A stretch of 64,000 bases of DNA from Tepidamorphaceae bacterium (GTDB taxonomy: Bacteria; Pseudomonadota; Alphaproteobacteria; Rhizobiales; JAKSCL01). Positions 10,261 through 28,010 of the stretch are shown here, in pieces (positions within the stretch are counted from its first letter, which is position 1; every line of letters begins with the position of its first letter). The notes beneath the pieces were generated by a model. It saw nothing but the letters and a program-made list of their open reading frames with translations, was not told the DNA's origin and did not search any database. Both the position numbers and the translations under genes were made by a program. The stretch lies in the NCBI GenBank assembly GCA_028289445.1, contig JANQPO010000012.1:62001-126000 (forward strand). Reading direction: 5' to 3'.

Positions 10261-11577
10261 TTAGCGCGCCAGAACCACCAGGTCCTGCTCGCCGTTTAGC
10301 CCGGGCACGGTGACGTCGGTTAGCGTTTCCGGCGCGCCCTTGGTCTTGAAGCCCTGTGCCAAGGCGGCCTGATAGGTTGCGCTGTCCGTCAGTGCGCGTG
10401 TTTGCGCGACTTTGTTGTAGTCCTCCAACTTGGCGGCGCGGTTCACCGGCCGGCCGATGACGGTGTGTTCCAGCCGCTGTTCATCGCCGACAACGCCGAC
10501 GACGACGGTTCCAAAGGCAACCGCGCAGCCGGCCCGCAAAGGCTCGCCAAGGCCGGACGCCGCCATGTTCGCATTACAGGCCGCAACCGCGTTTTGAACC
10601 CGGTCGATAGCCCGAAGTGCATCGGCGGCCGGCGTGTCGGACGGGCGGATCGCGCCGAATGTGGCGAGGATGCCGTCGCCCAGGTATTTGTCGATGGCGC
10701 CACCCGCCGCCTGGATCTCCGGCACCACATGCGCATGGAAACGAGCAAGGATGGCGGCCGTTTCCTCCGGCGTCAGGCGCTGCGCGAGCGTCGTGAACCC
10801 GCGAATGTCGACCATGAGGATCGCCGCTTCGCGATCGACACCATAGCCGGCGCGCAAATGCTCCGGGTCCTCGCTGCCGACGATGGTCGCAACATCGGCT
10901 GAAAAGAACCGGCTGAGATTGGAAACGGCCGCGGACTCGCGCACTGCCACGAACAGGACCCGGCGTGCCCGCACCAGCGCGTAGACCAAAAGCGCGGTGA
11001 CGGCGAGGATGACAAGCACCTTGTCCAGCTCGGCGCCGAACAGCACCATATTGCCGCTGATATACATGGGAAAATCGCGGGTGCGCCCGGGAAAGGCCGG
11101 ATCGACCATGACCGCGTATCCAAGCAATCCCAGCCAGCCGGCCGCACCGGCAAGTCCGGTAATCGCCACATAGATCGGGTCGAAGCGGAGCGCCCGAAGC
11201 GCGATGAACAGGAAGATGTAGAGCATGGTCGGCGCCTTCAGATAAAACGCCGCCGGCTCGTAGTACTGGATGTGGAAGGAAAAGATCAGCCCGCAAATGA
11301 GGCCGATATCGACCAAGATGGAGAGAATGAGGATCGGCGGGAACAGCCAATTGCGATAGGCGAGAAACAGCCGCACCAGCGTGAATGCCCCATAGGCCAA
11401 GAGCGCATAGGGCACGAAGTTGAACCCTTCCGTGCCCTCCGCGCGGGGCGCGAGGGCATAGAGCACGCCGAAAACCGTCACCAGGCCCAGTTGCACCCAG
11501 GAGATACGGATCTCTGCGTTGGCGTCTTGGCGTGCGATTTCTGCGGCAAGCCGTGGGGGTATAGATGGCGATGTCAT
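10261..11577 (-). CDS. Membrane adenylate/guanylate cyclase (class III)
   Basis: A 438-residue protein with about six membrane segments in residues 25-210, then a class III cyclase domain (about 225-400). Metal-binding aspartates are in LMVDIRGFT and KYLGDGILATFG, and the nucleotide-binding stretch reads HTVIGRPVNRAAKLED, with Lys where many cyclases have the transition-state Arg. It should make cAMP (or cGMP) at the inner membrane. It is the last gene of a minus-strand unit with an ABC exporter-like protein, a cNMP-binding protein and a metallo-beta-lactamase hydrolase; 124 bases separate it from the hydrolase, so it may also have its own promoter. Confidence 0.88.
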   Translation of the reverse strand: MTSPSIPPRLAAEIARQDANAEIRISWVQLGLVTVFGVLYALAPRAEGTEGFNFVPYALLAYGAFTLVRLFLAYRNWLFPPILILSILVDIGLICGLIFSFHIQYYEPAAFYLKAPTMLYIFLFIALRALRFDPIYVAITGLAGAAGWLGLLGYAVMVDPAFPGRTRDFPMYISGNMVLFGAELDKVLVILAVTALLVYALVRARRVLFVAVRESAAVSNLSRFFSADVATIVGSEDPEHLRAGYGVDREAAILMVDIRGFTTLAQRLTPEETAAILARFHAHVVPEIQAAGGAIDKYLGDGILATFGAIRPSDTPAADALRAIDRVQNAVAACNANMAASGLGEPLRAGCAVAFGTVVVGVVGDEQRLEHTVIGRPVNRAAKLEDYNKVAQTRALTDSATYQAALAQGFKTKGAPETLTDVTVPGLNGEQDLVVLAR

Positions 11578-11701
11578 CGTATCGACTTGCCAGCCGCCCG
11601 CGAAAAGCTCAATGCCCGGTCACGCATTCGTGCGGGATGAAGGGGCACTTTGTGTTGCCGCGCGATCCATCGCGAGCAGCGCAAGATCTTCGAAATCCGC
11701 G

Positions 11702-12544
11702 TCAGAGCCGGGTCACGTCGATCGTGACCCCCTCCGTGGCGATCGCGCCGCGTTGTGACACCGCTTTCATGTCCTTGCCGATCTGGTCGAGCTGATCGTC
11801 GCTTCGGTGTGGTGCATGATGAAACATATAGACCTTCTTGACGTCGGCCACTTCGCCGATCTCCAGGCCTTTTTGCCAGGTCGAATGCCCCCAGCCGACG
11901 AAGTTCTCGTACTCGGCTTCGGTGTAGTTGGCGTCATAGATCATCGCCTCCGTGCCGCCAACGAAGGTGGTGATCGCGGCATCGATGTCCGCATTGCCAT
12001 GTTCGTGATCGGTGATGATCGCCACCGACCGGCCCTGCCATTCAACTCGGAAGCCGCAACAGCCGCCAGGATGGTTGAGAAGAATGGTGCGGACCGAAAG
12101 CCCCTGTCCAAATTCCAGCGTCTCGCCCGGCTCGAACATATTGAGACGTGATCCCTTCAGGCTAGAGATCGGCACGGGGAACAGCGCCGGGTCCATAAGC
12201 CTGGACAACACGTCGTGGAGAGTCTCGTCGGCACGCAAATGCCCGGCCCAGCACGGATAGTCGCCGTCCGACCGGTAGGCCGGCTTGAAAAAGGGCAGCC
12301 CGCAGACGTGATCCAGATGGGTGTGCGTGAAGAGCATGTGGGCCGACAGCCGGTTCTCTTCTAAAAGCCGCTTGCCGAGTGCGTACGCGCCGGAACCACC
12401 GTCGATGATGAGGGTCTGCTCGCCGGCACGGATCTCGATACAGGCCGTGTTGCCGCCATAGCGCAAGGTGTGCGGTCCCGGCACCGGCAATGACCCGCGA
12501 ACGCCCCAAAAGCGCAGCGTAAATCGGTCGGACCCTTCGGTCAT
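11702..12544 (-). CDS. Metallo-beta-lactamase-fold hydrolase, possible cyclic-nucleotide phosphodiesterase
   Basis: A 280-residue protein. The N-terminus (FWGVRGSLPVPG, RYGGNTACIEI) and the metal motif THTHLDHVCGLPF are typical of the PhnP/YcbX-like branch of the metallo-beta-lactamase superfamily; further His/Asp ligands lie in ITDHEHGNAD and WGHSTWQ. Proteins of this type are known in fusions with cNMP-binding domains and receivers. Its start codon overlaps the stop of the cNMP-binding gene by four bases. Hydrolysis of cAMP/cGMP is an attractive inference from its partners, but other phosphodiester substrates are equally compatible with the fold. Confidence 0.82.
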   Translation of the reverse strand: MTEGSDRFTLRFWGVRGSLPVPGPHTLRYGGNTACIEIRAGEQTLIIDGGSGAYALGKRLLEENRLSAHMLFTHTHLDHVCGLPFFKPAYRSDGDYPCWAGHLRADETLHDVLSRLMDPALFPVPISSLKGSRLNMFEPGETLEFGQGLSVRTILLNHPGGCCGFRVEWQGRSVAIITDHEHGNADIDAAITTFVGGTEAMIYDANYTEAEYENFVGWGHSTWQKGLEIGEVADVKKVYMFHHAPHRSDDQLDQIGKDMKAVSQRGAIATEGVTIDVTRL

Positions 12545-13011
12545 CCGTTCGCCGTGGCTCGCGCCAGTTCACCGCGTACGTCGGCGAGATCGCGCGTTGT
12601 GCGCTCAAGCCGAGCCGCCAGAACGCGCATGATCTCAATCGTCATTTCCGGGAATTCGCTCATCATCTTCAAGAACTGATCCTTCGAGATGGTGAGTGTG
12701 TGGACTTCGGTTTTCGCGATAACGCTGGCGGTGCGCGGTACGTCGCACAAGATGGCGATTTCACCCACGATATCGTTGGTCCCGACCACCGCGACCGTCT
12801 TGGGTCCGGTATCGGTGTCGACGACGATATCCGCTTCACCGTCCAGCACGATAAACGCGCTGTCGCCGATATCACCCTGTTTGCAAAGTGTCTCGCCCGG
12901 ACCGTAGACCATGCGCTCGCTGATAAAGGCAAGAAGGCGCAGTTTTCCTTTCTCGATGCCGCGCAGCATCGGAACGCGTTGAAGCGCCTCAACTTCCTGA
13001 TCGATACTCAC
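12541..13011 (-). CDS. Cyclic nucleotide-binding (CRP-like sensor) domain protein
   Basis: A 156-residue stand-alone cNMP-binding domain without a DNA-binding part. The beta-roll (PGETLCKQGDIGDSAFIVL) is followed by a phosphate-binding cassette, GEIAILCDVPRTASV, which keeps the Glu and Arg that contact the cyclic nucleotide. A C-terminal helix (about 118-150) may pair with a partner protein. Lying between an ABC exporter-like gene (42 bases upstream) and the hydrolase gene (ATGA overlap), it is probably the cNMP sensor of this operon and could gate the transporter; the partner is inferred from position. Confidence 0.9.
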   Translation of the reverse strand: MSIDQEVEALQRVPMLRGIEKGKLRLLAFISERMVYGPGETLCKQGDIGDSAFIVLDGEADIVVDTDTGPKTVAVVGTNDIVGEIAILCDVPRTASVIAKTEVHTLTISKDQFLKMMSEFPEMTIEIMRVLAARLERTTRDLADVRGELARATANG

Positions 13012-13053
13012 TCTTTCCTCCTGCCTTTCGTGCGCGCGATGCCTTGCGCAAGG

Positions 13054-15684
13054 CTACTCTGCCGCCTGTCTAAGTGGGGTCAATGACGCCTGTACGGAGT
13101 CATAGGTGCCAGCGGCAACCAGACCGCCATTTTGCAACGCGATGATGTAGTCGAAGGTCTCAGCCGAATCGGCGTTTGCCATGCCGCAGACGACAGTCGA
13201 GTCCGGCGCCACCTGTTTGATGAACCGCAAGACCGGATCGTCGCCCGGCGCGCCAGTCACGAGGCCATCCAGAAGAATGATGTCCGGCCGCCTCAGGATG
13301 GCACGCACCAGCGCGATGCGTTGCTTTTGCCCTGTCGACAGACGGGACCCGGCGATCCCGACTTCGAATTCGAGGCCGGCGCGCATAATGACTTCACGCA
13401 AGCTCATCTCGTCCACGATCTGGCCGATAAAACGCTCGATCGCCTCGCGCGCCTTCGGACGGTCGAGGCGCGGCCGGCCGAACAGAAGATTGTCCTCGAT
13501 CGAAAGGCTGGGAACGATCTTGTCGGCCTGGAAATGCTCGAACGCATCCGGCGCGTCCTTATCGAGCCGTTCGCGCATCGGCGCCCGCGCGGCGACGACC
13601 TTCTCCTGGAAGTCCTCCGTCGACAGGCCGAGACGGTGCCGGGTCGGCACCAGCATGAAGGCCAGGCCGATCAGCTTGGCCGCTTCGTCATCGGTAAGTT
13701 CGCTCTTGTTCTTCGTGCGGTTGAGCAGGGCGTCATAGTCCGAGATCTCGTCCTTCGGAATGAACGAGTAGGTCGACAGCAACTCGTTCTCGTCGCTGAC
13801 ATCGGCAAACAGTTCGACCATGGTCTCGGCGATGCTGCGGCCGATCCCGACCAGATCGTCGTGCAAACCGTTTTCGCGAATGACGTCCTTGATCTCCGGC
13901 ATCGCCGCCATGTCATGGGGGGTCACCGCCGGATCGACGGGCAGGCCATAGACGATGTTCTCGATCACCGAGGCGGATCGGTTGAAGCTGTCAGGCGTCC
14001 ACAGATGGACATACTCGCCGAACTCCGGCTCCGACAGCACCCGCTCCCGGATCGCGGCACGGGCACCCAGGATGCGCTCCGACAACTCAGAATCAGTGTG
14101 CCCTTCAACCGTCGACTGAAGCCCCATGCGGTAGATGTCATCGCCGAGACCGACGCCGGATACCAGCTCGATCATGCGTTCGTCGAGCGCTTCCAGCGAC
14201 TCGACGCCGGCGGCATCGATGTCTTCCCACCGAAGGTTGATTTCATAGCCACGGGCACCCGTCAGTTGGGCCTCCGTCAGGCGCCGTTGCAGGAGCGCAT
14301 CGTCGATTTCTTCACCGTCCAGCAGGGGTAGCGGCCGGTGATAGAGGCCATAGGTCAAATTGTTGCGGATCGTGCCGGTGAAGATGTGAGGTGAACTGTC
14401 CAGATACGCCAGTTTCCGGCCAAGCACGGAATCCGGCAGCGTGTCGGTCGCCTGATCGCCGATTTGCGCGCGACCCGACGATGGTGCCAGCAACCCCGCC
14501 AAGATCTGCATGAGCTGCGGGCGACCGCTACCCTCGCCGCCGATGACAGCAGTGGTTCCAGGAATCGGGATGGTCGCCGCGATTCCGTCCAGATTCTGCC
14601 CCGCGCCCTCGCCGACATAGCTGACATTCTGCAGTGCGATGCTGTCGGCACCGGACAGGTCGATATCGCCCGGATCGTCCAGCCGCTCGACCGGGAAGAT
14701 GTCCGACGCGTCGAACTGCTCGATCACGGCATCGTATTTGACGATCGTGTCGGCCAGCATCTGATAGTAGGCCAAAAGCTCTTTCCATGGGCCGGCCAAG
14801 TCCTTGTAGGCCGCAAGAACGGCGACCAGCGCGCCGAAGGAGATGTTGCCCTGGATCACCAGATAACCGCCGATCGAGTAGAAAAAGAACGGCGTGAGCT
14901 GGTTCAAGAAATTGTTGAGAAACTTGATCGCGTATTTGCGTTTGAAGATTTCAAACCGGATCTCGAAATTCGTCTGCAACCGATCCGACACGTCCGCCAT
15001 GTGATAGGCGGTGGTGTCGTTGGCGTGGATCTCGCGGATGCCGGAGATCGATTCACCGACCCGGTCGGACAATTGCCTTAGATTGCGGACGCGCTCCTTG
15101 CCGAGTTGGTTCACCCGCCGTTGCAGACGCGGAATGATATAGCCCTGGATCGGATAAAGCGCGACGGCAGCCGCACCGAGCAGCGGGTCCTGCACGAAAA
15201 TAAAGGTCAGATAGACGAGAAGCGTGCCGCCCTGGAACGCCGGCGTGGCAATGGCATCGGCGATGAAACCGCCAAGCGGCTGCACTTCCGCCGTGATCAT
15301 GGAGATGATCTCGCCCGCCGAAATCTTACCGAAATGCGCCAGCCGGAAGCGCAAAACGCGCTCAAACAGCTGATAACGGATGCGGCGCAGCATCCGCTCT
15401 CCGGTCAGGCCTTTGTAAGTGTTCAGGCAGAACTTGACGACATTGTTGAGGACGACAAGGCCGAGGAATGCAAAGCAAAGCGCTAGCAGGAATGGAATCT
15501 GATCGAGTTCCATTCCCAGAAAATTGCGCGGAAATTGCGTGCCGCCGATCGCCTCGTTGATGATGCGCTTCGGCAGTTCCAGCGTCGTGTACAGAATCGG
15601 GAACGACAGCGTAGTGATCAGCACGATGGTGATCTGCTGCCGCTTACTGTACTTCCAGACGAACTTGAAGAGGCTCTTTTCCAT
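13054..15684 (-). CDS. ABC exporter-like protein with degenerate, enlarged nucleotide-binding domain
   Basis: An 876-residue protein from ATG 15684; ATG 15711 would add nine residues. Residues about 10-330 are an ABC exporter membrane domain. The ATPase part is strange: Walker A is GGEGSGRP (382-389), with Arg in place of the essential Lys; Walker B is IILLDG (802-807), lacking the catalytic Glu; the switch region VVCGMANAD has no His; the signature LSTGQKQR (782-789) is intact. Walker A and signature lie 400 residues apart instead of about 110-130. The intervening region contains three copies of the post-Q-loop motif: IRNNLTYG, IENIVYGL and IEDNLLFG. It is first gene of the cNMP operon and divergent from a glycosyltransferase operon. 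ATP hydrolysis is doubtful. Confidence 0.85.
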   Translation of the reverse strand: MEKSLFKFVWKYSKRQQITIVLITTLSFPILYTTLELPKRIINEAIGGTQFPRNFLGMELDQIPFLLALCFAFLGLVVLNNVVKFCLNTYKGLTGERMLRRIRYQLFERVLRFRLAHFGKISAGEIISMITAEVQPLGGFIADAIATPAFQGGTLLVYLTFIFVQDPLLGAAAVALYPIQGYIIPRLQRRVNQLGKERVRNLRQLSDRVGESISGIREIHANDTTAYHMADVSDRLQTNFEIRFEIFKRKYAIKFLNNFLNQLTPFFFYSIGGYLVIQGNISFGALVAVLAAYKDLAGPWKELLAYYQMLADTIVKYDAVIEQFDASDIFPVERLDDPGDIDLSGADSIALQNVSYVGEGAGQNLDGIAATIPIPGTTAVIGGEGSGRPQLMQILAGLLAPSSGRAQIGDQATDTLPDSVLGRKLAYLDSSPHIFTGTIRNNLTYGLYHRPLPLLDGEEIDDALLQRRLTEAQLTGARGYEINLRWEDIDAAGVESLEALDERMIELVSGVGLGDDIYRMGLQSTVEGHTDSELSERILGARAAIRERVLSEPEFGEYVHLWTPDSFNRSASVIENIVYGLPVDPAVTPHDMAAMPEIKDVIRENGLHDDLVGIGRSIAETMVELFADVSDENELLSTYSFIPKDEISDYDALLNRTKNKSELTDDEAAKLIGLAFMLVPTRHRLGLSTEDFQEKVVAARAPMRERLDKDAPDAFEHFQADKIVPSLSIEDNLLFGRPRLDRPKAREAIERFIGQIVDEMSLREVIMRAGLEFEVGIAGSRLSTGQKQRIALVRAILRRPDIILLDGLVTGAPGDDPVLRFIKQVAPDSTVVCGMANADSAETFDYIIALQNGGLVAAGTYDSVQASLTPLRQAAE

Positions 15685-15951: not shown

Positions 15952-17172
15952 ATGTCCCAAACTCTGAAACCGACGCATCCGCGTGTGTTGATCTACAGCC
16001 ACGATACGTTCGGGCTCGGCCACCTGCGCCGCTGCCGCGCGATCGCCCATGCGCTGGTCGAAGCGACAGACAAGATGTCCGTGCTCATCCTGTCGGGTTC
16101 GCCGATCATCGGCAGTTTCGATTTTCGCTCGCGGGTCGATTTCGTCCGCGTTCCCGGCGTCATCAAACTCCGCAACGGCGAATATACGGCCCTTAGCCTT
16201 CATCTCGATATCGATCAGACGCTCGCCATCCGCTCGTCAATCATCGAACACACGGCGAAGGTCTTCCAGCCGGACATCTTCATCGTCGACAAGGAACCGA
16301 CCGGTCTGCGCGGCGAGGTCGCCTGGACATTGGAGATCCTGCGCGAAATGGGCACGCGCAACGTGCTTGGGCTACGCGACGTGCTCGACGCGCCGGAAGT
16401 CCTCAAGGAAGAGTGGGAGCGCAAGCACGCCTTCGCCGCGATCGAGGACCTTTACGACGACATCTGGGTTTACGGCCTAAAGTCGATCTACGACCCATTG
16501 ACCGATCTGCCGATCTCCGACGATGTCCGCCGCCGGACGCGCTTCACCGGCTATCTGCGGCGCGGACAGCCGAGGCGGAAATATTTCGAGCCGACCGCTT
16601 ATAAAGACGAGCCGTTCATTCTGGTGACGCCGGGCGGTGGCGGCGACGGCATCGAACTGGTGGACTGGGTCATGCGCGCCTACGAGGCACAGCTTCAGCC
16701 GCTTTTTCCTGCGATGATCGTCCTTGGGCCGTTCATGCCGCAGGACAAGCAATCGGAGTTTTTCGCCCGCGCCCAGAAGCTGCGCAATGTTCGCATGCTC
16801 CGCTTCACGCCGAACATCGAGGCCATCATGAACAAGGCGACGGCCGTCGTGGGCATGGGCGGCTACAACACGTTTTGCGAGATCATCTCCTTCGACAAGC
16901 CTGCGTTGATGGTACCCCGCGTCGTGCCGCGTCGCGAACAGGCGATCCGCGCCCAGCGGGCGGAAGAAGTCGGGCTCGTCCGGACCTTGCCGATCGACGG
17001 CTATCCCGATGTCGATCAGATGACCGAGGCGCTTGCAGCCCTGCCGACGCAAGCCCATCCATCGGTCAGCGGACACAACGGGCTGCTGGACGGCCTCGAC
17101 GTAATCAACGCCATGACCAGAGACGTCATCGAGGGCCATGTCGAAGCGGAAGCGCGCGCGGCGCTCGCCTAG
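15952..17172 (+). CDS. MurG-like (GT-B) glycosyltransferase
   Basis: A 406-residue soluble GT-B glycosyltransferase. The N-terminal glycine-rich loop is in FGLGHLRRC (about 20-28). The C-terminal half carries a nucleotide-sugar site typical of GT28: LVTPGGGGDGIE, then GMGGYNTFCEIISFDKP. MurG transfers GlcNAc to a lipid carrier; the donor and acceptor here are unknown. It opens a five-gene plus-strand unit of glycan genes and diverges from the ABC/cNMP operon across a 267-base gap in which I see no other gene. The fourth gene of the unit (19488-20642) is a visible paralogue. Confidence 0.82.
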   Translation: MSQTLKPTHPRVLIYSHDTFGLGHLRRCRAIAHALVEATDKMSVLILSGSPIIGSFDFRSRVDFVRVPGVIKLRNGEYTALSLHLDIDQTLAIRSSIIEHTAKVFQPDIFIVDKEPTGLRGEVAWTLEILREMGTRNVLGLRDVLDAPEVLKEEWERKHAFAAIEDLYDDIWVYGLKSIYDPLTDLPISDDVRRRTRFTGYLRRGQPRRKYFEPTAYKDEPFILVTPGGGGDGIELVDWVMRAYEAQLQPLFPAMIVLGPFMPQDKQSEFFARAQKLRNVRMLRFTPNIEAIMNKATAVVGMGGYNTFCEIISFDKPALMVPRVVPRREQAIRAQRAEEVGLVRTLPIDGYPDVDQMTEALAALPTQAHPSVSGHNGLLDGLDVINAMTRDVIEGHVEAEARAALA

Positions 17173-17191
17173 AGTCTGGGTCTGATATCAA

Positions 17192-18400
17192 ATGGCGCGC
17201 ATCGCGGTTCTGGTGAAAGGCTATCCGCGCCTGTCGGAGACCTTCATTGCGCAGGAGCTGCACGGGCTGGAACAGCGCGGCCTTGAGCTGCTCATCGTAT
17301 CGCTGCGTCATCCGACCGATCCCCATCGCCATCCCGTTCACGATGCGATCAAGGCCGACGTGCTTTACCTGCCGGAGTACCTCAAGGACGATCCGCCGCG
17401 CGTGCGGGCCGGGCGGACATGGGCCCAGGCGCGACCGGCATATCGTAAACTACGACCCGTGTTCGATAGAGACCTGGCGCGCGACCGCACCGTTAACCGC
17501 TGGCGACGGCTCGGACAGGCCTGTGTCCTTGCCCGCGAACTGCCCGAGGACGTTGTCGGCCTTTATGTTCACTATCTTCACACACCGGCGTCCGTCGCAC
17601 GCTATGCCGCTATCCTGACCGGCCGCCCTTTCGCGTTTTCGGCCCACGCCAAGGACATCTGGACGACACCGGACTGGGAGGTGAGAGAAAAGATCGCCGA
17701 TGCCCGTTGGGGCGTCACCTGCACGGCGATCAATCGCGATCATCTGGCGGCCCTTGCCGATCGGCCGGAGAAAGTCGACCTTGTCTATCACGGGCTCGAT
17801 CTTTCGGCGTTTCCAAAACCGCCCGACAGGCGTCGCCGCGCCGGGCCGCTGACCATCCTCTCCGTCGGTCGCTTGGTGGAGAAAAAGGGCTATGGCGATC
17901 TTCTCTCCGCGCTCGCGAAACTGCCGAGCGACCTTGATTGGAATTTCGTTCATATCGGCGGCGGGCCGCTTGCATCGACCCTTCGCGAGCGTGCGGAACG
18001 GCGCGGATTGACTGACCGGATTTCCTGGCGTGGCATGCAGCCCCGCGACGCGGTCATCGCCGCTGGGCTTCAAGCAGACCTCTTTGTTCTACCTTCGCGG
18101 ATCGCCCGATCCGGCGACCGTGACGGCCTGCCCAATGTTTTGATGGAAGCACAGGCGCTGGGCCTGCCGGTCGTCGCCACGCGCCTGTCGGCGATCCCCG
18201 AGCTTGTCATCGATGGCGAGACCGGCTTGCTGGTTCCCGACCGCGATCCCAAGGCCCTTGCAAATGCGATCCAGAAGTTGGCGCGCGACCCGGATCTCCG
18301 TCACCGGTACGGCATAGCTGGGGCAAAGCGCGTGCGCGAGGCATTCTCCGAGGCGCCAGGGCTTGATCGCCTTGCGGCCAAGCTGAAGGACTTGCGGTGA
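17192..18400 (+). CDS. Glycosyltransferase family 4
   Basis: A 402-residue GT-B enzyme with the GT4 C-terminal signature: SVGRLVEKKGYGDLL for the nucleotide-binding start, and an E-x7-E type motif in GLPNVLMEAQALGLPVV. The N-terminus (LVKGYPRLSETFIAQELHGL) is typical of enzymes that extend exopolysaccharide or glycolipid chains. It starts 19 bases after the preceding glycosyltransferase and overlaps the next gene by GTGA, so it belongs to the same transcript. The sugar is not predictable from sequence. Confidence 0.88.
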   Translation: MARIAVLVKGYPRLSETFIAQELHGLEQRGLELLIVSLRHPTDPHRHPVHDAIKADVLYLPEYLKDDPPRVRAGRTWAQARPAYRKLRPVFDRDLARDRTVNRWRRLGQACVLARELPEDVVGLYVHYLHTPASVARYAAILTGRPFAFSAHAKDIWTTPDWEVREKIADARWGVTCTAINRDHLAALADRPEKVDLVYHGLDLSAFPKPPDRRRRAGPLTILSVGRLVEKKGYGDLLSALAKLPSDLDWNFVHIGGGPLASTLRERAERRGLTDRISWRGMQPRDAVIAAGLQADLFVLPSRIARSGDRDGLPNVLMEAQALGLPVVATRLSAIPELVIDGETGLLVPDRDPKALANAIQKLARDPDLRHRYGIAGAKRVREAFSEAPGLDRLAAKLKDLR

Positions 18401-19491
18401 GAATTGCCTTCTACGCGCCGATGAAACCGCCGGACCACCCGACACCGTCCGGCGACCGGCAGATGGGCCGCCTGCTGATCGAGACGCTGGAGGCGATGGG
18501 CCACACCGTGGAGCTCGTTTCGCGCCTGCGGACGTGGCAAAGGGAACTCAATCCCGACCGGACAGCAAAGCTTGCCGCCGAAAGCGCCGGAGAAGCGGAG
18601 AAAATCGTCGCAACAACGCAGCGGCCTGACCTGTTCGTCACCTATCACGTCTACCACAAGGCGCCCGACTGGATCGGCCCCGCCGTCGCGACCGCACTCG
18701 ACATTCCCTATGCCATTATCGAAGCCAGCCATGCCGAACACCGACGCGAGGGGCCGTGGCGGTCGGGGCTGGAAGCCTCCGAGGCGGCGATTCAGGCTGC
18801 TGACGCTGTTGTCGCGATGAATGCACGTGATCGGCGCGGACTGACGGGTATCGTCGCCGAACACAGGCTCTTTGACCTCAAACCGTTCATCGATGCTGCG
18901 CCGTTTCTCTCGACCGTGCACCGATCGGCCGATGGCCCTGTTCGACTGCTGACAGTCGCGATGATGCGGCCTGGCGACAAATCGGTGAGCTACCGGACGC
19001 TTGCGGACGCGCTGGCGCGGCTTAGCGACCTCGACTGGACGTTGACGATTGTCGGCGACGGCCCGGCCCGCACCGATCTCGCACCGCTTTTCCCGACGGA
19101 TCGCACGACACTCCTGGGCGCCGTGCCGGCCGATGCCCTGCCGGCGCTTTATGCCGACGCGGATGTCTTTGTCTGGCCCGGTTTCAAGGAGGCCTACGGA
19201 CTGGTCTATCTGGAGGCAATGGCGTCCGGACTGCCGGTGATCGGCGGCCGAAATGGCGGCGTGCCCGACATCGTGCTTGATGGCAAGACCGGTATCCTCG
19301 CGCCACCCGAGGACAGCGCCGCACAGGCTGCGGCGATCCGCCAGTTGATCGAGGACGCCGACCTGCGCCGTCGCATGGGCCCCGCGGCGCGCACCCACGT
19401 TGCCGAACACCACGACATCAAGGCAGCCAAGACGACGCTAGCGGCTATTCTGTCAGCCGCTAGCGAAAATGCGACGGAGCGCCGGCCGTGA
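18397..19491 (+). CDS. Glycosyltransferase family 4
   Basis: A 364-residue GT-B enzyme. The N-terminus MRIAFYAPMKPPDHPTPSGD is characteristic of GT4 enzymes. The catalytic E-x7-E element is in FKEAYGLVYLEAMASGLPVI, and a PDIVLDGKTG loop follows. The start is a GTG inside the GTGA overlap with the preceding gene, which indicates coupled translation; the end overlaps the next gene the same way. Substrate unknown. Confidence 0.87.
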   Translation: MRIAFYAPMKPPDHPTPSGDRQMGRLLIETLEAMGHTVELVSRLRTWQRELNPDRTAKLAAESAGEAEKIVATTQRPDLFVTYHVYHKAPDWIGPAVATALDIPYAIIEASHAEHRREGPWRSGLEASEAAIQAADAVVAMNARDRRGLTGIVAEHRLFDLKPFIDAAPFLSTVHRSADGPVRLLTVAMMRPGDKSVSYRTLADALARLSDLDWTLTIVGDGPARTDLAPLFPTDRTTLLGAVPADALPALYADADVFVWPGFKEAYGLVYLEAMASGLPVIGGRNGGVPDIVLDGKTGILAPPEDSAAQAAAIRQLIEDADLRRRMGPAARTHVAEHHDIKAAKTTLAAILSAASENATERRP

Positions 19492-20642
19492 AGACGCTAA
19501 TCTGGGTTCAGCATCTGCTTGGCATGGGTCATCTGATGCGCGCCGCGGCCTTGGCGCGGGCGCTGGCGGACAAGGGCATCGATACGCTTCTGGTCAGCGG
19601 CGGCGCCGTGCCAAGCCTGGTCGATAGCGGTGCCGCGAAGATCGCGACCCTGCCGCCCTGCCGCGCCGCCGATGTGACCTTTAAGGTCATCCTCGACGAA
19701 AACGACGCGCCTGTCACCGACGCCTGGTGGACGGAGCGGGCCGCCCGGCTGAACCGGATCGTCGACGACTTCGATCCCGATGTTCTGATCACCGAGACCT
19801 TTCCCTTCGGGCGCAGACGCTTCCGCGACGAACTCCTACCCGTCATCGAAAAGCGCCGCGCGGCGCGGCGACAGACCATGACCGTCGCCTCGGTCCGCGA
19901 CATCCTGGTCACCGCCACGCCGGAGAAGGATGACTGGATGGTGGAGGCCGCCCGGCGCAGCTACGACCTGATCCTGATTCATGGCGATCCAAAGACCATC
20001 AGCTTCGATGACAGTTTTCGCCGTGCCGCCGACATCATGCACTTGGCCGAATACACCGGCTACATCGTTTCGGCATCGAATGTCGCGGCACCACCCGGCG
20101 ACGGCGTCGGTGAAGTCATCGTATCCTGCGGCTCCGGCGCGCTCGGCACATCGCTGTTTCGCGCCACGGTGGGCGCCCGCGCGCTGAGCAATAGCGCCGC
20201 CGACCTGACATGGCGCATGTTGGCGGGCTACGGCATATCCGAAACGCTCTTTGGCGAGATCAAGGATAGAGCGCCGGCCGGCATGATCATCGAGCGCGCA
20301 CGGCCGGACTTCATGGCGCTGCTTGGACGTGCGCGTCTATCGATCAATCTGGGCGGCTACAACACGATCATGGATGTTATCTCGACTGGCGTTCCGTCCG
20401 TCATCGTGCCGATTTCGGCGGAAGGAGAGACGGAGCAGGAGCAGCGCGCTCGACTGTTCGCCGAACGGGGTTTGGTGGTCTGTTTGCCGGAGCGGGACCT
20501 GACGCCCCAGTCTCTCGCCGCCGCTGCCGACCAGGCCATGGCGCTGACCCCGCCGCCCCACGGTATCGATACCGCGGGGATCAACCGAAGCGTGGAGATC
20601 CTTGTTGCGCGCTACCGAGCATGGGCGGACCATGGACGCTGA
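19488..20642 (+). CDS. MurG-like (GT-B) glycosyltransferase
   Basis: A 384-residue GT-B protein, similar in plan to the first gene of the unit. The N-terminal loop is GMGHLMRAAALARAL, and the C-terminal nucleotide-sugar site includes INLGGYNTIMDVISTGVP. The GTG start sits in a GTGA overlap with the upstream GT4 gene. Together the two MurG-like and two GT4 enzymes could build a short oligosaccharide of up to four sugars; that count is inference. Confidence 0.82.
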   Translation: MKTLIWVQHLLGMGHLMRAAALARALADKGIDTLLVSGGAVPSLVDSGAAKIATLPPCRAADVTFKVILDENDAPVTDAWWTERAARLNRIVDDFDPDVLITETFPFGRRRFRDELLPVIEKRRAARRQTMTVASVRDILVTATPEKDDWMVEAARRSYDLILIHGDPKTISFDDSFRRAADIMHLAEYTGYIVSASNVAAPPGDGVGEVIVSCGSGALGTSLFRATVGARALSNSAADLTWRMLAGYGISETLFGEIKDRAPAGMIIERARPDFMALLGRARLSINLGGYNTIMDVISTGVPSVIVPISAEGETEQEQRARLFAERGLVVCLPERDLTPQSLAAAADQAMALTPPPHGIDTAGINRSVEILVARYRAWADHGR

Positions 20643-21393
20643 TACCGAACGCGACCGTTTCGTCTCTCTCCTCGACGAGGCTGCAAGGCGCCGAACGCCG
20701 ATCCGGTTCTGGTGGCGCGACGACGACGCGGTCTCCGTCACGCCGGCGCTTGAGGCAATGACTGCCGTGCAAGCGCGCCACCGGGTCCCGTTGGCGCTTG
20801 CCGTGATCCCGAAGCCAGCGGAACCGTCGCTTGCCGCCTATCTCGGCGACTTTCCCGAGATCGCCGTGTTCCAGCATGGCTGGCAACACAAGAGTCACCG
20901 CGACAAGGCGCGCGGTGAGCGGGCATCAGAGTTTCCGCGCAGCCGTCCGATCGACGAGTCGCTCGACGACCTGACACATGGATTCGCTCGACTGACCGAC
21001 CTATTCGGTGAGCGCTTCCTGCCCGTGTTGACCCCGCCCTGGAACCGGATCTCAAAGCCCGCGCGCACCCGCCGGAGAGAGGCCGGCCTGATCGGTCTCT
21101 CCGGCTTCAGCCGCATCAAGTTTGCGGACGCCCATCTCGTCAATTGTCATGTCGACATCATCAAGTGGCGCGGCGTGAACGCATTTACCGGCCGGCTGAC
21201 TGGCTTTCGTCGACTGGTCGCGCAAACGCGCCGGTGCCTGGCGGGGCTCGATCAGCCCATTGGCCTTTTGACCCATCACCTCGTCCACGACGACGCGGCC
21301 AATGCCTTCGTCGACGAGGTGCTTACGATCACGGCGAACCACCCCGGCGCCGTCTGGCCAGCCCTGCCTGATCTGTTCAAACTGCCGAAGTGA
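20632..21393 (+). CDS. Polysaccharide deacetylase-like protein (NodB-related)
   Basis: A 253-residue protein with a carbohydrate esterase 4-like layout: FWWRDDDAV for the catalytic/metal Asp, QHGWQHKSH for the two metal histidines, and TPPWNRIS as the third motif. These enzymes remove N-acetyl groups from GlcNAc-containing glycans. I chose ATG 20632, which overlaps the preceding gene by 11 bases; an in-frame start at 20602 would add ten residues. It has no signal peptide, so it would act on a cytoplasmic, probably lipid- or nucleotide-linked, intermediate. It closes the five-gene glycan unit and is convergent with the methyltransferase. Confidence 0.82.
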   Translation: MDADTERDRFVSLLDEAARRRTPIRFWWRDDDAVSVTPALEAMTAVQARHRVPLALAVIPKPAEPSLAAYLGDFPEIAVFQHGWQHKSHRDKARGERASEFPRSRPIDESLDDLTHGFARLTDLFGERFLPVLTPPWNRISKPARTRRREAGLIGLSGFSRIKFADAHLVNCHVDIIKWRGVNAFTGRLTGFRRLVAQTRRCLAGLDQPIGLLTHHLVHDDAANAFVDEVLTITANHPGAVWPALPDLFKLPK

Positions 21394-21394: not shown

Positions 21395-21997
21395 CTAGTC
21401 CGCGCGCCCGACCAACCGCATTTTGAATGTCGTCGTCTTGACGCCGCCGCGAATGGTGACGTCGTCGATCACCCGATATCCGGGACCGTCGGTCTCGGCC
21501 CAGACCGCGTCGATGTGCTTATGCGCGCCGCTGTCGGCACGGTCCGGCGCATACATGGAGACGACGATGACGCCGCCGGGCGAAAGGTAGTCGAGATAGC
21601 GGCGCACCTCACCCGCCGGATCGGCGGCGAAATAGAGAACTTCGTTGAAGATGATCGCCGAATAGGTCTCGCCCTCCGCCTTAAACTCCTCCAAGGCAGC
21701 GGTTACCAACCGATCCTCCGGACCGACCTTGGCAAGCGCCAACGCCTTCGCCGAAACATCCACACCGGTGTAGCGTGCCATCCCATAGGGCTTCAGGAAA
21801 TCCCAGACGAGGCCCTCGCCGCAGCCGACGTCCAAAACATGAGCGAGCGCGTCGGTCTGCTTCAGCCACGCGGCGATCATTCCAGAGCGTGCCTGCTGCT
21901 TCAGGCCACGCAGGAAATCGAGGCTGCCGGCGTCGTATTCCTCGTCCCAATGACGGGCAATAACGGCCGGGTCTTTACTTGTAGGGGTCGGCCGCAT
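21395..21997 (-). CDS. Class I SAM-dependent methyltransferase
   Basis: A 200-residue Rossmann-fold methyltransferase with the SAM-binding motif VLDVGCGEG and an acidic residue after the second strand (YTGVDVSAKAL). The chosen ATG 21997 overlaps the end of the upstream permease gene by 23 bases; an earlier in-frame start at 22036 is possible. It is the last gene of the transporter unit by position, but its product could equally serve the convergent glycan cluster, for example by methylating a sugar. Confidence 0.82.
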   Translation of the reverse strand: MRPTPTSKDPAVIARHWDEEYDAGSLDFLRGLKQQARSGMIAAWLKQTDALAHVLDVGCGEGLVWDFLKPYGMARYTGVDVSAKALALAKVGPEDRLVTAALEEFKAEGETYSAIIFNEVLYFAADPAGEVRRYLDYLSPGGVIVVSMYAPDRADSGAHKHIDAVWAETDGPGYRVIDDVTIRGGVKTTTFKMRLVGRAD

Positions 21998-23150
21998 CGC
22001 GCAATCCGTCTCCGAAGAAGTTAAAGGCAAGGACAACGACGATCACCGGAATGACCGGCGCCATCAGCCAGGGATAGACGGTAATGATGGTGATGTTTTG
22101 CGCCTCGTTCAACAGCACGCCCCACGAAACCACCGGCCTTCGTAGACCGAGATCGAGAAAGGAGAGCGCCGTCTCGCCCAGGATCATCGACGGGATCGAC
22201 AGGGACGCAGACGCAATCAAATGGCTCATAAAGCCAGGCACCAGGTGCCGTCCGATCACTCGCGTCGGCTTGGCACCCATCAGCACGGCGGCCCGCGCAT
22301 ACTCCTCCTCCCTGAGTGCCAGGAGCTTCGAGCGCACGGCCCGCGCCAGGCCAGGCCAGTCGAGAAGGCCCAAAATGACCGTGATGCCGAGGTAAATCAG
22401 GATCGGGTTCCAAGTCACCGGCAATGCGGCCGACAAGGCCATCCACAAGGGCAACTCCGGCAGCGAACGCAGGATCTCGATGACGCGCTGAACGAAGGAA
22501 TCCACAATGCCGCCGAAATACCCGGCCGCCCCGCCGATGATGATGCCGAGCAGCATCGATATCGCGACCCCGATCAGACCGACGGTGAGCGAGATACGGG
22601 CGCCGTAGACGATGCCGGAGAAGACGTCGCGGCCGAGCCTATCCGTGCCGAGGAGAAAGACGGTGCCGCCTTCCGCCGGACAAAACAGGCGAAAACTGGC
22701 CTCAAATCCCATCCAGTAGTCGTAGGGATCGCTGAAGCAGAAGAAGCGGATCGGCTGGACATCGTTGAGATTGGGTTTGAACTCCCGCTGCATCAGGTCC
22801 AGGTTGATCGTCGATTCCATGCCGTAGACGAACGGTCCGACGAACCGGCCTTCGTGGAACAGGTGTAGGCCCTGCGGCGGCGCGTAGATGTGTTCGGAGT
22901 GGCGCTGGTTCGGCGAATAGGGCGCCATCTGCTCGGCGAACGGCACAGCCAGATAGAAGATGAAGAGGATAACGCCAGCCCACATCGCTGGTTTGTGGCG
23001 GCGGAATTTCCACCACATGATCTGCATTTGCGAGGCTTGGAAGAAGCGCTCCTGCTCCGGCGTGATCACCTCGCGGCTGGTTGGGTCGAACGGATCGGGA
23101 TTGACGTAGTGGTCCGGCGCCAGCGAGGTGGTTTCTCGTTGATCGGTCAC
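21975..23150 (-). CDS. ABC transporter permease, DppC/YejE/OppC type
   Basis: A 391-residue inner-membrane permease with an N-terminal membrane anchor (about 57-75), a long periplasmic segment (about 75-165), the LGTDRLGRDVFSGIVYGAR entry to the transport domain, and the EAA-loop motif (EEYARAAVLMGAKPTRVIG) that docks on the ATPase. It is longer than ordinary DppC (about 300); this long form is seen in family-5 importers of oligosaccharides or large peptides (YejE, AgpC). It overlaps the companion permease by four bases. Confidence 0.9.
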   Translation of the reverse strand: MTDQRETTSLAPDHYVNPDPFDPTSREVITPEQERFFQASQMQIMWWKFRRHKPAMWAGVILFIFYLAVPFAEQMAPYSPNQRHSEHIYAPPQGLHLFHEGRFVGPFVYGMESTINLDLMQREFKPNLNDVQPIRFFCFSDPYDYWMGFEASFRLFCPAEGGTVFLLGTDRLGRDVFSGIVYGARISLTVGLIGVAISMLLGIIIGGAAGYFGGIVDSFVQRVIEILRSLPELPLWMALSAALPVTWNPILIYLGITVILGLLDWPGLARAVRSKLLALREEEYARAAVLMGAKPTRVIGRHLVPGFMSHLIASASLSIPSMILGETALSFLDLGLRRPVVSWGVLLNEAQNITIITVYPWLMAPVIPVIVVVLAFNFFGDGLRDAADPYK

Positions 23151-24172
23151 GACCGCGCTCCCTGGCCGAGACGAATGCGCGGATCGAGCAGCGCCAGAAG
23201 CAGGTCGGAGATCAACATGCCGACCAGGGTAAGAACCGCGACGAACATCAAGATGAAGCTCGCCAGAAACTGATCCTGGGACTGCAGCGCGCTCAAGAGG
23301 ATCGGTCCGACCGTCGGCAGATTGAGCACGACCGAGACGATGACCGATCCCGACACCAGCGAAGGAATGAGATTGCCGATATCGGCAACGAATGGATTAA
23401 GCGCCATCCGCAGCGGGTATTTCAGGATCAGGCGATTTTCCTTCAGTCCCTTGGCCCGCGCGGTCGTCACATATTGCTTGTGAAGTTCATCGAGCAGATT
23501 GGCACGCAAGCGCCGGATCATGCCGGCGGTGCCCGATGTGCCGATGACGATGGTCGGGATGATCAAGTGCGACAGCACCGATTTGATCTTCTCCCAACTC
23601 CACGGCTGATCGATGTATTTGGGATCCATCAGCCCGCCGATCGACAGGCCGAACCAAACATTGGAGTAGTAGAGCAGGATGAGCCCAAGCAGGAAGTTCG
23701 GCGTCGCCAGGCCGATATAGCCCAGGAAGGTGAACCCATAATCGCCCCAAGAATACTGCCGCGTCGCGGAATAGATCCCGATCGGCAGCGACACGATGTA
23801 AACGAACAAAATGGTCGTGAAGTTGAGGATCACGGTCAAGAGCAGGGTCGGCCCGACGACCGTGTTGACCGGTTGATCGTATTCGAACGACCAGCCCCAA
23901 TTGCCCTGCAAGATACCCGAAAATCCGGACGCTCCAGGCCAAAGTCCGACCCACATCAAATAGCGAACGAGAAACGGGCGATCGAGACCGAACTCCTTGC
24001 GCAGGAACTCGATCTTGGCGACACCCGCCCCCTCGCCCGACGCCTGAAGCGCGGCGATCTGGTTCGACAGATAATCGCCCGGCGGCAGTTCGATGATGGC
24101 AAAGGTCAAAAGCGAGATCACGAACAAAGTCGGGATCATCGTGAATATGCGGCGGACGATATAGGCCAGCAT
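23147..24172 (-). CDS. ABC transporter permease, DppB/YejB type
   Basis: A 341-residue permease with six predicted membrane segments. The family N-terminus is MLAYIVRRIFTMIPTLFVIS, and the EAA-like loop (KQYVTTARAKGLKENRLILKY) contacts the ATPase. It pairs with the permease encoded next, to which it is coupled by an ATGA overlap, and with the binding protein whose gene ends 35 bases upstream. Confidence 0.92.
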   Translation of the reverse strand: MLAYIVRRIFTMIPTLFVISLLTFAIIELPPGDYLSNQIAALQASGEGAGVAKIEFLRKEFGLDRPFLVRYLMWVGLWPGASGFSGILQGNWGWSFEYDQPVNTVVGPTLLLTVILNFTTILFVYIVSLPIGIYSATRQYSWGDYGFTFLGYIGLATPNFLLGLILLYYSNVWFGLSIGGLMDPKYIDQPWSWEKIKSVLSHLIIPTIVIGTSGTAGMIRRLRANLLDELHKQYVTTARAKGLKENRLILKYPLRMALNPFVADIGNLIPSLVSGSVIVSVVLNLPTVGPILLSALQSQDQFLASFILMFVAVLTLVGMLISDLLLALLDPRIRLGQGARS

Positions 24173-24207
24173 CGAACCCTGCCTTCACAAAACGCGCTGG
24201 GACCGAG

Positions 24208-26127: not shown

Positions 26128-28010
26128 GCGGCTTCTCCAAGCGTGTCCGATCGATCGGTCGGAATACAAACCAGATGCCCCGGCGACACTTCTTCCAGAT
26201 GCGGATAGAGGTCGTCGGTCAGGCGATAGGGGGCCGGCCAAGCATCTGGGATCGATGCCCGAGAGTCGGCCAAATGATCAAAATCCAAGCGGTTGTTGAG
26301 GTCGGGTTCTGGAATCGCCATCAACAGCGCTTGTGTGTAGGGATGGCGCGGATCGTCGATGATTGCCGCCTTCGGACCGACCTCGACGATCCGGCCACGG
26401 CACATCACGGCAATCCGGTCGGCGATATAGTCGACGACCGCCAGATTGTGACTGACGAAGAGATAGGTCAGCCCAAGATCGGCCTTCAAATCGCGCAGCA
26501 AGTTAAGGATTTGCGCTTGGACTGAAACGTCGAGCGCCGAAACCGGCTCGTCGCATAACAGGAAATCCGGCGCGAGCGCCAGGGCCCGTGCGATGCCGAT
26601 GCGCTGCCTCTGACCGCCGGAAAAGGAATGCGGATAGCGGCGCAAATGCCGGATATCGAGGCCAACCAGGCGCATCAATTCGCGCACCCGCTCGGACCGC
26701 TCATCAGGCGTGCCCACGGAGTGGATAATGAACGGCTCAAGCAGAATGTCGTTGACCGTCATACGCGGGTTGAGCGACGAAAACGGGTCCTGAAACACCA
26801 GCTGCATGTCGCGCCGATAGGCCAGAAGCCGTTCCCGCGACATTGTGCTGACGTCTTCGAATTCGTCATCCATGCGGTACGAGATCGCACCGCTGTCGGC
26901 GGGCTCGGCACGCAAGATAACCTTGGCCGTCGTCGTCTTGCCCGATCCGGACTCGCCAACGAGACCAAGACACTCGCCCGTCGCAACCGTCAGGTTGACG
27001 CAATCCATCGCCTTGATGGTGCGGGTCGGCCCGCCGATCGAACCGGATTTCTTGAGTTCGTAGACCTTTGAGACATCGCGCAACTCAAGCAGCGACGCGC
27101 CAGTCGGCGGTCCCGGATTGCTCTCGCGCGATTGCACCAACAAAGCGCCGGCTTCGGCCGCAATCGGCCGGATCGGCTTCAAGCGTTCCTCGGCGCCCAT
27201 GTGAAAACGCGGCACAGCGCCGAGCAAAGCTTTGAGATAGTCGTGTTGCGGATTACCGAAGATGGTCTCAGCGGACCCCGACTCCATCACTTTGCCATGG
27301 TAGACCACGACAACTTCATCGGCCATGTTGGCGACAACGCCGAAGTCGTGGGTGATAAGGAGCACGGCCATCTGCAATTCGGCCTGAACGTCGCGGATCA
27401 GGCGCAGGATTTCGGCCTGAATCGTAACGTCGAGCGCCGTGGTCGGCTCATCCGCGATCAAGAGCGCCGGCCGGCACATGAGCGCCATGGCAATCATCGC
27501 CCGCTGCCGCAAACCGCCGGAAAGCTCAAAGGGATAGGAATCGACCGAGCGCTCCGGATTGGGAAACTGCACCAGCCGCAGCATCTCTATCGTTAGGTCA
27601 CGCGCTTCGTTGCGGGTCTTGCCGCGATGCAGCCGCACCACCTCGCCAAGCTGATCGCCAATGGTGTGAAGCGGCGAGAGCGATGTCATGGGTTCTTGAA
27701 ATACGATGGAAATCCGATCGCCACGAATATCCCGCATCTGATCGCCGTCGCGCGGGAGCTTGACGATATCGGCCGGCTGCCCGCCGGTCTCCGGGTCGCG
27801 AAACTCGATCTTGCCGCCAAGGATCGAGGCGTTGTCCGCCAACAGGCCGGTGATCGCCTGAGAGATCACCGATTTGCCGGACCCGGACTCGCCGACAAGG
27901 GCGACGGTCTTACCATGCGGGACGACGAACGACACGCCGTCGACGGCTCGCGTCAAGCCATCGCTTCCGGCAAATTCGATGACGAGATCTTCGATCTCGA
28001 TCACGTTCAT
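26124..28010 (-). CDS. ABC transporter ATPase with two fused nucleotide-binding domains (DppD-DppF/YejF type)
   Basis: A 628-residue cytoplasmic protein. NBD1 has Walker A GESGSGKS, signature LSGGLRQR and Walker B LLIADEPTTALD; NBD2 has Walker A GESGSGKTT, signature FSGGQRQR and Walker B FLLCDEPVSALD. Each is followed by the oligopeptide-type C-terminal extension (GNPQHDYLKALL and DDPRHPYTQALL), and the second also by a region ending in HLVCIPT. One chain therefore supplies both ATPases of the importer. It is the first gene of the unit. Confidence 0.93.
   Translation of the reverse strand: MNVIEIEDLVIEFAGSDGLTRAVDGVSFVVPHGKTVALVGESGSGKSVISQAITGLLADNASILGGKIEFRDPETGGQPADIVKLPRDGDQMRDIRGDRISIVFQEPMTSLSPLHTIGDQLGEVVRLHRGKTRNEARDLTIEMLRLVQFPNPERSVDSYPFELSGGLRQRAMIAMALMCRPALLIADEPTTALDVTIQAEILRLIRDVQAELQMAVLLITHDFGVVANMADEVVVVYHGKVMESGSAETIFGNPQHDYLKALLGAVPRFHMGAEERLKPIRPIAAEAGALLVQSRESNPGPPTGASLLELRDVSKVYELKKSGSIGGPTRTIKAMDCVNLTVATGECLGLVGESGSGKTTTAKVILRAEPADSGAISYRMDDEFEDVSTMSRERLLAYRRDMQLVFQDPFSSLNPRMTVNDILLEPFIIHSVGTPDERSERVRELMRLVGLDIRHLRRYPHSFSGGQRQRIGIARALALAPDFLLCDEPVSALDVSVQAQILNLLRDLKADLGLTYLFVSHNLAVVDYIADRIAVMCRGRIVEVGPKAAIIDDPRHPYTQALLMAIPEPDLNNRLDFDHLADSRASIPDAWPAPYRLTDDLYPHLEEVSPGHLVCIPTDRSDTLGEAA

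Follow-up and report, generated by a model that had tools for sequence, protein, structure and literature searches.

An exporter-fold ABC protein with degenerate nucleotide-binding motifs and its cyclic-nucleotide-binding neighbor in a conserved glycosyltransferase locus of Alphaproteobacteria

A 64,000-nucleotide stretch of DNA from a Tepidamorphaceae bacterium (here, the window) carries four minus-strand genes that encode an ABC protein (ABC), a cyclic-nucleotide-binding domain (CNB), a metallo-beta-lactamase-fold hydrolase (MBL), and a nucleotide cyclase (CYC) (Table 1). Do these genes form a self-contained operon, as a first-pass annotation had claimed, and what might a cyclic nucleotide do to an exporter-like protein? 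The arrangement described by that annotation, four genes on one strand with tight spacing of the first three, was confirmed: ABC and CNB are 42 bp apart, CNB shares 4 bp with MBL, and 124 bp separate MBL from CYC. The quartet is not the conserved unit, however. Of 80 named loci, 12 have the four genes contiguous, every one from close kin of the window; the 80 were the best of 569 relatives and are thus biased to close kin. Contiguity was found in none of the 99 loci of a class survey. The conserved unit is instead a locus of ∼20 kb of Alphaproteobacteria and some Gammaproteobacteria, in which ABC with CNB is accompanied by a glycosyltransferase/deacetylase-like block in divergent orientation and an ABC importer of the peptide type, often joined by MBL and a cyclase; in the window, it extends through the divergent genes to ∼28 to 30 kb. 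Co-conservation of the four genes, which the annotation had offered as a check, thus holds in the broad sense of membership in this larger locus but not as contiguity. The degenerate nucleotide-binding domain (NBD) motifs of ABC, the insert of ∼290 residues that splits them, and the extent of the conserved unit had gone unmentioned. We give about an even chance to the reading that the window genes make up the regulatory end of an envelope-glycan locus that is conserved, with CNB as the regulatory subunit of ABC and a nucleotide switching the latter.

Table 1. Features of the locus in the window (positions are those of the window)
Feature	Positions	Strand	Description
CYC	10261-11577	minus	438 aa; membrane class III nucleotide cyclase
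MBL	11702-12544	minus	280 aa; metallo-beta-lactamase-fold hydrolase
CNB	12541-13011	minus	156 aa; stand-alone cyclic-nucleotide-binding domain
ABC	13054-15684	minus	876 aa; type IV ABC-exporter fold, degenerate NBD
NBD insert segment	13453-14349	minus	∼299 residues; two extra Q-loop/helical-subdomain copies (hhalign, AF2, VIA)
GTa	15952-17172	plus	GT28-C-like glycosyltransferase; Pfam Glyco_tran_28_C; divergent from ABC, conserved
GTb	17192-18400	plus	GT4 glycosyltransferase; Pfam Glycos_transf_1; conserved
GTc	18397-19491	plus	GT4 glycosyltransferase; Pfam Glyco_trans_1_4; conserved
GTd	19488-20642	plus	GT28-C-like glycosyltransferase; Pfam Glyco_tran_28_C; conserved
PDA	20602-21393	plus	possible polysaccharide deacetylase-like protein; start uncertain; Pfam DUF2334 subthreshold, E 0.029
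MT	21395-22036	minus	SAM-dependent methyltransferase; Pfam Methyltransf_23
PERMC	21975-23150	minus	Opp/Dpp-type importer permease; NCBIfam Opp4C under cut-off; conserved
PERMB	23147-24172	minus	Opp/Dpp-type importer permease; NCBIfam Opp4B under cut-off; conserved
SBP	24208-26241	minus	family 5 solute-binding protein; Pfam SBP_bac_5 2e-52
OPPDF	26124-28010	minus	fused two-NBD importer ATPase; Pfam ABC_tran
CYC2	28146-30089	minus	Cache-like sensor plus class III cyclase, beside importer

The divergent glycan genes, already tied to the ABC set in the first-pass annotation, are part of this conserved locus. Three or more of the four glycosyltransferase families recur in 60 of the 99 class-survey loci, PDA (a possible deacetylase, going by motif resemblance) in 44, and importer parts in 49 (short windows), in counts made with thresholds of our choosing and with many neighborhoods truncated by contig ends. 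At 31 of the 99 loci, the fetched stretch contains none of these glycosyltransferases, so some ABC-CNB pairs operate apart from them. The importer ATPase OPPDF has canonical motifs (GESGSGKS, GESGSGKT, and DEP). The start of SBP is probably downstream of the listed TTG.

A probable counterpart in Sinorhizobium meliloti gives the locus a phenotype to be compared with. The ABC homologue of strain 1021 maps at 842 to 844 kb of pSymB, and by gene order the probable ortholog of the locus appears to lie within the interval smb21252-smb21271 (PMC10128002, PMC11387232). Insertions in genes of this interval lower phazolicin resistance, an effect attributed to an uncharacterized surface polysaccharide termed phazolicin-protecting polysaccharide (PPP); glycosyltransferase mutants lose resistance, and a cyaA insertion is likewise depleted (PMC10128002). 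Unlike our reading, the passages of that paper that deal with the interval present its genes as polysaccharide synthesis and do not discuss a pseudo-ABC/CNB role (PMC10128002). Another pSymB locus, the MsbA2 operon (SMb21188-21191), similarly places a symbiosis-related exporter beside glycosyltransferases; it was rejected as the counterpart, as its genes are near 938 kb (PMC3687685). Searches of open-licence PubMed Central, including by locus tag, retrieved no description of the gene set, and PPP itself was found there in a single paper.

How firmly MBL and the cyclase belong to the locus was judged from their families and positions. MBL matches Pfam Lactamase_B_2 (4e-16) and retains the metal-binding HxHxDH motif of the metallo-beta-lactamase fold, as do 36 of 37 aligned sequences. 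CYC matches Guanylate_cyc (1e-07) and, in phmmer, the adenylate cyclases 2w01, 3r5g, and 1wc0; its metal-binding D257 and D301 and its transition-state N379 are conserved and the ATP-type Lys/Thr is retained, while the transition-state Arg is Lys in the window and in 24 of 31 aligned sequences in all. It is possible, if somewhat doubtful, that both are mere neighbors, with the cyclase serving global cAMP signaling, MBL being an unrelated hydrolase, and the system comprising only ABC-CNB and the glycan genes. MBL indeed lies beyond 25 kb of ABC or on another contig in 32 of the 51 genomes holding both, it occurs in ABC-lacking genomes, and its match to the NCBIfam cyclic-nucleotide phosphodiesterase model NF041851 is weak (28.3 bits against a cut-off of 400). 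This alternative is at odds with the four-gene contiguity seen among the best-matching relatives, with the presence of a cyclase in gammaproteobacterial copies of the locus, and with the association of MBL with ABC, which exceeds chance both in co-occurrence (51 of 57 ABC-positive versus 33 of 132 ABC-negative genomes) and in proximity (at most 25 kb apart in 19 of the 57), counts that ignore phylogeny. Where they join the locus, MBL and cyclase take one of two places, directly after CNB in the window lineage or, outside it, at the far end of the larger locus with the importer; on many contigs, 14 to 20 kb separate MBL from ABC, and MBL and/or a cyclase are found beyond the importer. A first impression that the two were unrelated to the locus was dropped on these grounds. 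CYC-family cyclases (at least 200 bits) occur in 30 loci, and gammaproteobacterial copies of the locus contain one, although the family is absent from the fetched stretch in 97 of 99 near windows and in 22 of 31 far sides (which cover 31 ABC genomes). The recurrence of both families agrees with their link to the ABC/CNB set drawn in the first-pass annotation. In the window, CYC2 matches Guanylate_cyc (9.5e-25) and, under the cut-off, dCache_1 (1e-07); the S. meliloti importer block is headed by a cyclase weakly similar to it (57 bits). MBL may remove a cyclic nucleotide, as the first-pass annotation had proposed.

The ABC protein has the architecture of type IV exporters such as TM287/288, TmrAB, PCAT1, and the MsbA family, i.e., a transmembrane domain (TMD) followed by a C-terminal NBD. 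It matches Pfam ABC_membrane (PF00664; 7e-24) and ABC_tran (1e-14), and its AF2 model (pLDDT 86) resembles solved ABC exporters over the whole chain with Z of ∼24 in VIA (9iqg_A: Z 24.9, rmsd 3.9, 433 aligned residues). The family departs from these exporters in the loss of Mg-ATP residues, the insert, and the CNB partner. The window protein reads GGEGSGRPQ and LLDG where a complete Walker A motif (GxxGxGK[ST]) and the DE of Walker B would be expected. Among 93 of the 96 full-length ABC open reading frames (L081, L101, and L110 were excluded from the alignment), Walker A K[ST] is present in 4, the Walker B Asp in 16, and Walker B DE in 3; the Mg-ligand position is acidic in 71, and only one sequence is canonical at all nucleotide-site motifs. 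Most members lack the Mg-binding residues, namely the Ser/Thr of Walker A, the Gln of the Q-loop, and the Asp of Walker B. Motif loss is uneven: the window lineage retains the Asp of Walker B, and Roseibium is among the relatives that read GSGRS. Seven further ABC loci of the same genome (six genes) were scanned, and all have a canonical Walker A, as does OPPDF. The label of ABC exporter-like protein given in the first-pass annotation therefore fits the fold, whereas "exporter" needs care given the family-wide loss of ATP-binding residues.

These losses suggest that the family may have lost ATPase function. We consider it fairly unlikely that ABC is still an ATP-driven glycan exporter, working through nonstandard residues or with a canonical half-transporter and merely modulated by CNB. 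The intact and conserved TMD, the fold similarity to solved exporters, the Walker A Lys/Arg retained in 89 of 93 sequences, and the mostly retained signature L..Q would all suit such an exporter; the disappearance of Mg-binding residues from most members does not, and the query families conserved in the locus included no canonical half-transporter. The heterodimeric exporters TM287/288, TmrAB, and BmrCD have one degenerate site. The ABC family shares with them a degenerate nucleotide site within an exporter fold, but it is a single-gene family in which both Walker A and Walker B are lost.

The conserved insert within the NBD holds two additional Q-loop/helical-subdomain copies. In hhalign, R2core aligned with R3core at E 6.7e-18, and R1 with R2core and R3core at 4.9e-06 and 1e-06, respectively. 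The insert model draws on 80 of the 93 ABC sequences. Folded alone by AF2 (pLDDT 92.4), the insert weakly matched ABC NBD segments in all 11 top VIA hits (Z 3.6 to 5.1; best, rmsd 2.8 over 71 residues), while Foldseek returned no match to the PDB at E ≤ 0.001.

CNB has the cNMP_binding fold (PF00027; 8e-22) with an intact phosphate cassette, the Arg being present in 157 of 157 homologues and the Glu in 151; a cyclic nucleotide is its putative ligand. Its gene adjoins ABC in 78 of the 99 class-survey loci, and in 9 more CNB is fused to the ABC C terminus (9 of 96 open reading frames of >800 aa). Adjacency or fusion in 87 of 99 loci is more than chance association, in line with the partnership proposed in the first-pass annotation, and on these genomic grounds a putative regulatory link between the two proteins is well supported. 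TIGR03896 bacteriocin-type transport-associated proteins likewise associate a cNMP-binding domain with an ABC exporter; CNB scored 38.5 bits (E 8e-10) against that model, short of the 161.05 cut-off, there are no bacteriocin genes here, and CNB is either stand-alone or on the ABC C terminus. CNB and the cyclase domains also match PADLOC Pycsar models, which is to be expected of class III cyclases and CNB domains in general. An anti-phage defense system was set aside as unlikely, with these matches taken as generic similarity; no Pycsar effector domain was seen, and the conserved locus is glycan-related.

A last alternative, that ABC is a membrane scaffold or sensor rather than a transporter and couples the importer and the cyclic-nucleotide level to glycan synthesis, would suit the importer genes with canonical ATPase in the same locus and the ABC-CNB pairs kept without glycosyltransferases, but the invariance of the TMD matches that of a transporter, and ABC has no known contact with the importer; we hold this alternative to be quite improbable.

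We return to control of ABC by a nucleotide through CNB. In the scheme that we propose, GTa to GTd and the deacetylase-like protein would make a glycan or glycolipid, and ABC would be a membrane protein of exporter fold in which the two NBDs have lost standard Mg-ATP binding and two extra copies enlarge the helical subdomain. The locus cyclase would produce the nucleotide bound by CNB, the presumed regulatory subunit, and this binding would flip ABC between states, controlling glycan export, assembly, or sensing. MBL may clear the nucleotide or act on another substrate, and the adjoining peptide-type importer, whose ATPase motifs are normal, may salvage material derived from the glycan. Transport by ABC, and its gating, direction, and cargo, are what we infer; the four genes, the motif loss in ABC, and their place in the locus suggest that control of this exporter-like protein may fall to a cyclic nucleotide and not to ATP. 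In a bolder version, which we put forward only tentatively and regard as rather unlikely, the exporter fold would have swapped ATP for a cyclic nucleotide as gating ligand; CNB, stand-alone or fused and fed by the locus cyclase, would open or close a transport or flippase path for the envelope glycan, with the extra helical-subdomain copies as its docking platform.

ATP-driven cycling is the defining feature of ABC transporters. If the proposal is true, this would be a bacterial ABC protein gated directly by a cyclic nucleotide, and a widespread exporter-fold family devoid of Mg-ATP residues and tied to CNB through gene fusions would represent another way to power or gate the fold. cAMP-type signaling would then act at the envelope transporter itself, not at transcription. 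In Sinorhizobium, where PPP protects against antimicrobial peptides, the locus provides named candidates, amenable to knockout, for the unexplained steps of this polysaccharide.

Re-reading of the open reading frames (ORFs), their coordinates, and their spacing confirmed the positions of the four genes described in the first-pass annotation as a self-contained cyclic-nucleotide operon built around an ABC exporter-like protein (hereafter, ABC).

Gene layout of the locus in the window
Feature	Position	Strand	Remarks
Class III cyclase	10261-11577	-	124-bp gap to MBL
Metallo-beta-lactamase-fold hydrolase (MBL)	11702-12544	-	4-bp overlap with CNB
Cyclic-nucleotide-binding protein (CNB)	12541-13011	-	42-bp gap to ABC
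ABC	13054-15684	-	exporter-fold protein
Four glycosyltransferases and a deacetylase-like gene	15952-21393	+	divergent from ABC
Methyltransferase		-	past the glycan block
Peptide-type ABC importer	21975-28010	-	past the glycan block
Second cyclase, class III	28146-30089	-	Cache-like sensor; adjoins the importer ATPase

With the sensor-linked second cyclase beside the importer ATPase, there are two cyclases in the locus, and their inputs would differ. This second cyclase is adjoined by a Stf0-type sulfotransferase and an FkbM methyltransferase (30124-32010); an FkbM gene also follows CNB in Sinorhizobium meliloti (locus L221). Two large ORFs at 32057-36207 had no match in an NCBIfam search; as read from their sequences, one is a putative papain-like C1 peptidase, and the other appears to resemble an SGNH hydrolase plus a caspase-like domain.

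A survey of the class recovered ABC in 96 of 289 genomes (E ≤ 1e-80), giving 99 loci. CNB was adjacent downstream of ABC in 78 of these and fused to its C terminus in 9; in the remainder, it was near (5), absent (6), or cut by a contig end (1). Among the named loci (the best 80 of 569 relatives), 64 had CNB adjacent to ABC; in the others, it was near (6), absent (8), or cut (2). Its phosphate-binding cassette is intact across homologues (Arg in 157/157, Glu in 151/157). CNB very probably regulates ABC.

Conservation extended to the glycan genes. Within survey windows reaching only about 8.6 kb either side of ABC, at least three of the four glycosyltransferase families occurred in 60/99 loci and one or more importer genes in 49/99; 31/99 had no glycosyltransferase of the set. 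The best 80 of 569 relatives carried at least three families in 62 cases and importer gene(s) in 53. Much of the same set accompanies gammaproteobacterial copies, e.g., in Marinobacterium zhoushanense (L210) and in records labeled as Gammaproteobacteria metagenome-assembled genomes (L193, L195, L201, and L212). In all likelihood, the locus makes an envelope glycan. The clusters listed by unbiased neighbor clustering included a histidine phosphatase (55 loci; e.g., L188:5594-6343), a small bPH-like membrane protein (48 loci; L039:1941-2702), and a Methyltransf_17 protein (31 loci; L130:7575-8096), which may also belong to the locus.

MBL and the cyclase were less constant in position. All four genes were contiguous in 12 of the best 80 of 569 relatives (Breoghania, Afifella, Rhodobiaceae, Stappia, Roseibium/Labrenzia, and Pseudovibrio), and MBL directly followed CNB in 17. 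The near windows of the class survey contained MBL in 2/99 loci and the cyclase in 2/99, adjacent in neither case. When the far side was fetched for 31 ABC genomes, 16 had MBL there and 9 had a cyclase scoring at least 200 bits; the usual arrangement was MBL, cyclase, importer, glycan genes, ABC, CNB. A 32nd locus, from another genome of the window's family picked by its cyclase, had cyclase and MBL together. Across 189 genomes, MBL (E ≤ 1e-25) was present in 51/57 ABC-positive versus 33/132 ABC-negative genomes, kinship ignored. It lay within 25 kb of ABC in 19 of the 57, against roughly 1 genome by chance (a rough reckoning that ignores kinship), farther away on the same contig in 8, and only on another contig in 24; 6 lacked it. 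An OmpR-type response regulator, named from sequence, occurred in 16 loci (e.g., L264:12649-13419), beside MBL in several. The MBL motif HxHxDH is retained in 36/37 sequences, and the match to the NCBIfam cyclic-nucleotide phosphodiesterase fell far under the cutoff; that MBL degrades the cyclic nucleotide is a tentative proposal. The cyclase family retains the metal Asp residues, the ATP-type Lys and Thr, and Asn, with Lys at the expected transition-state Arg position in 24/31.

The AF2 model of ABC is a type IV exporter (mean pLDDT of 86; 93 sequences), with 9iqg_A as the top VIA match (Z of 24.9, rmsd of 3.9, 433 residues). Of the 93 members in the alignment, 4 retain Walker A K[ST], 16 the Walker B Asp, 3 Walker B DE, and 1 all these motifs together; Asp or Glu replaces the Mg-ligand Ser/Thr of Walker A in 71. 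Loss is uneven: relatives within the window's lineage, Roseibium for example, read GSGRS, with Arg for Lys. In the genome from which the window comes, Walker A is canonical at 7/7 other ABC-type loci scanned (6 genes, as one gene accounts for two of the loci) and also in the locus's importer ATPase. ABC probably lacks normal ATPase activity. One genome encodes a second, short relative (G107:C4:21623-22552; model positions 3-322 only, 425-codon open frame) comprising the membrane part without the nucleotide-binding domain.

In ABC, approximately 290 residues are inserted between the Q-loop and the signature of the nucleotide-binding domain. Two repeats within the insert match each other (hhalign E of 6.7e-18) as well as the canonical post-Q-loop segment (E of 4.9e-06 and 1e-06), and five positions of the segment (Arg 97, Asn 131, Arg 255, Asn 287, and Gly 291) do not vary among 80 members. 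Folded alone, the segment reached a pLDDT of 92.4. Foldseek returned zero PDB matches at E ≤ 0.001; with a closer aligner, the top 11 rows were all Q-loop/helical segments of ABC-type nucleotide-binding domains, at low Z (3.6 to 5.1). We read the insert as two putative extra copies of the helical subdomain, for which the sequence repeat is strong and the structural support weak by itself.

In S. meliloti, the ABC homologue lies at 842-844 kb of pSymB, and strain ml46 shows the order cyclase, polysaccharide lyase, importer, glycosyltransferases, methyltransferase, ABC, CNB, FkbM, LacI. PMC11387232 lists SMb21272 as a LacI regulator, and smb21265 is named a glycosyltransferase family protein in PMC10128002, the phrase also used for the first glycosyltransferase (GTa) in Rhizobium. 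Gene counting would place the locus at about smb21259-smb21271. According to PMC10128002, PPP, an uncharacterized surface polysaccharide that protects against phazolicin, depends on nine genes in the interval from smb21252 to smb21271; smb21252 and smb21265 mutants are phazolicin sensitive, an insertion in cyaA (smc00339) was likewise depleted, and cAMP is named as a surface-polysaccharide regulator. PMC5498481 describes transcriptional control of the adjacent polysaccharide cluster nodP2-smb21248 by cAMP/Clr. The S. meliloti 1021 pSymB record (L220, 15944-18651) splits the ABC homologue into two ORFs, which score 69 and 461 bits; it is one ORF in S. medicae (L218), and the split is possibly a frameshift or sequencing error.

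We propose that the locus cyclase would make a cyclic nucleotide, suggested by its ATP-type residues to be cAMP, which CNB would bind. Because CNB partners or fuses with ABC, whose normal use of Mg-ATP seems to be lost, the cyclic nucleotide is the better candidate for the ligand switching ABC; supply by the locus cyclase is somewhat favored. The output would be envelope glycan export, assembly, or sensing. The four-gene reading stands in part: CNB is tied to ABC and the glycan genes are co-conserved, but the four-gene set is seldom contiguous. Given this partial support, the interpretation should take in the entire glycan locus and, more specifically, name an exporter-fold pseudo-ATPase that has a cyclic-nucleotide subunit. 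If direct gating were shown, the system could well be of a categorically new kind.
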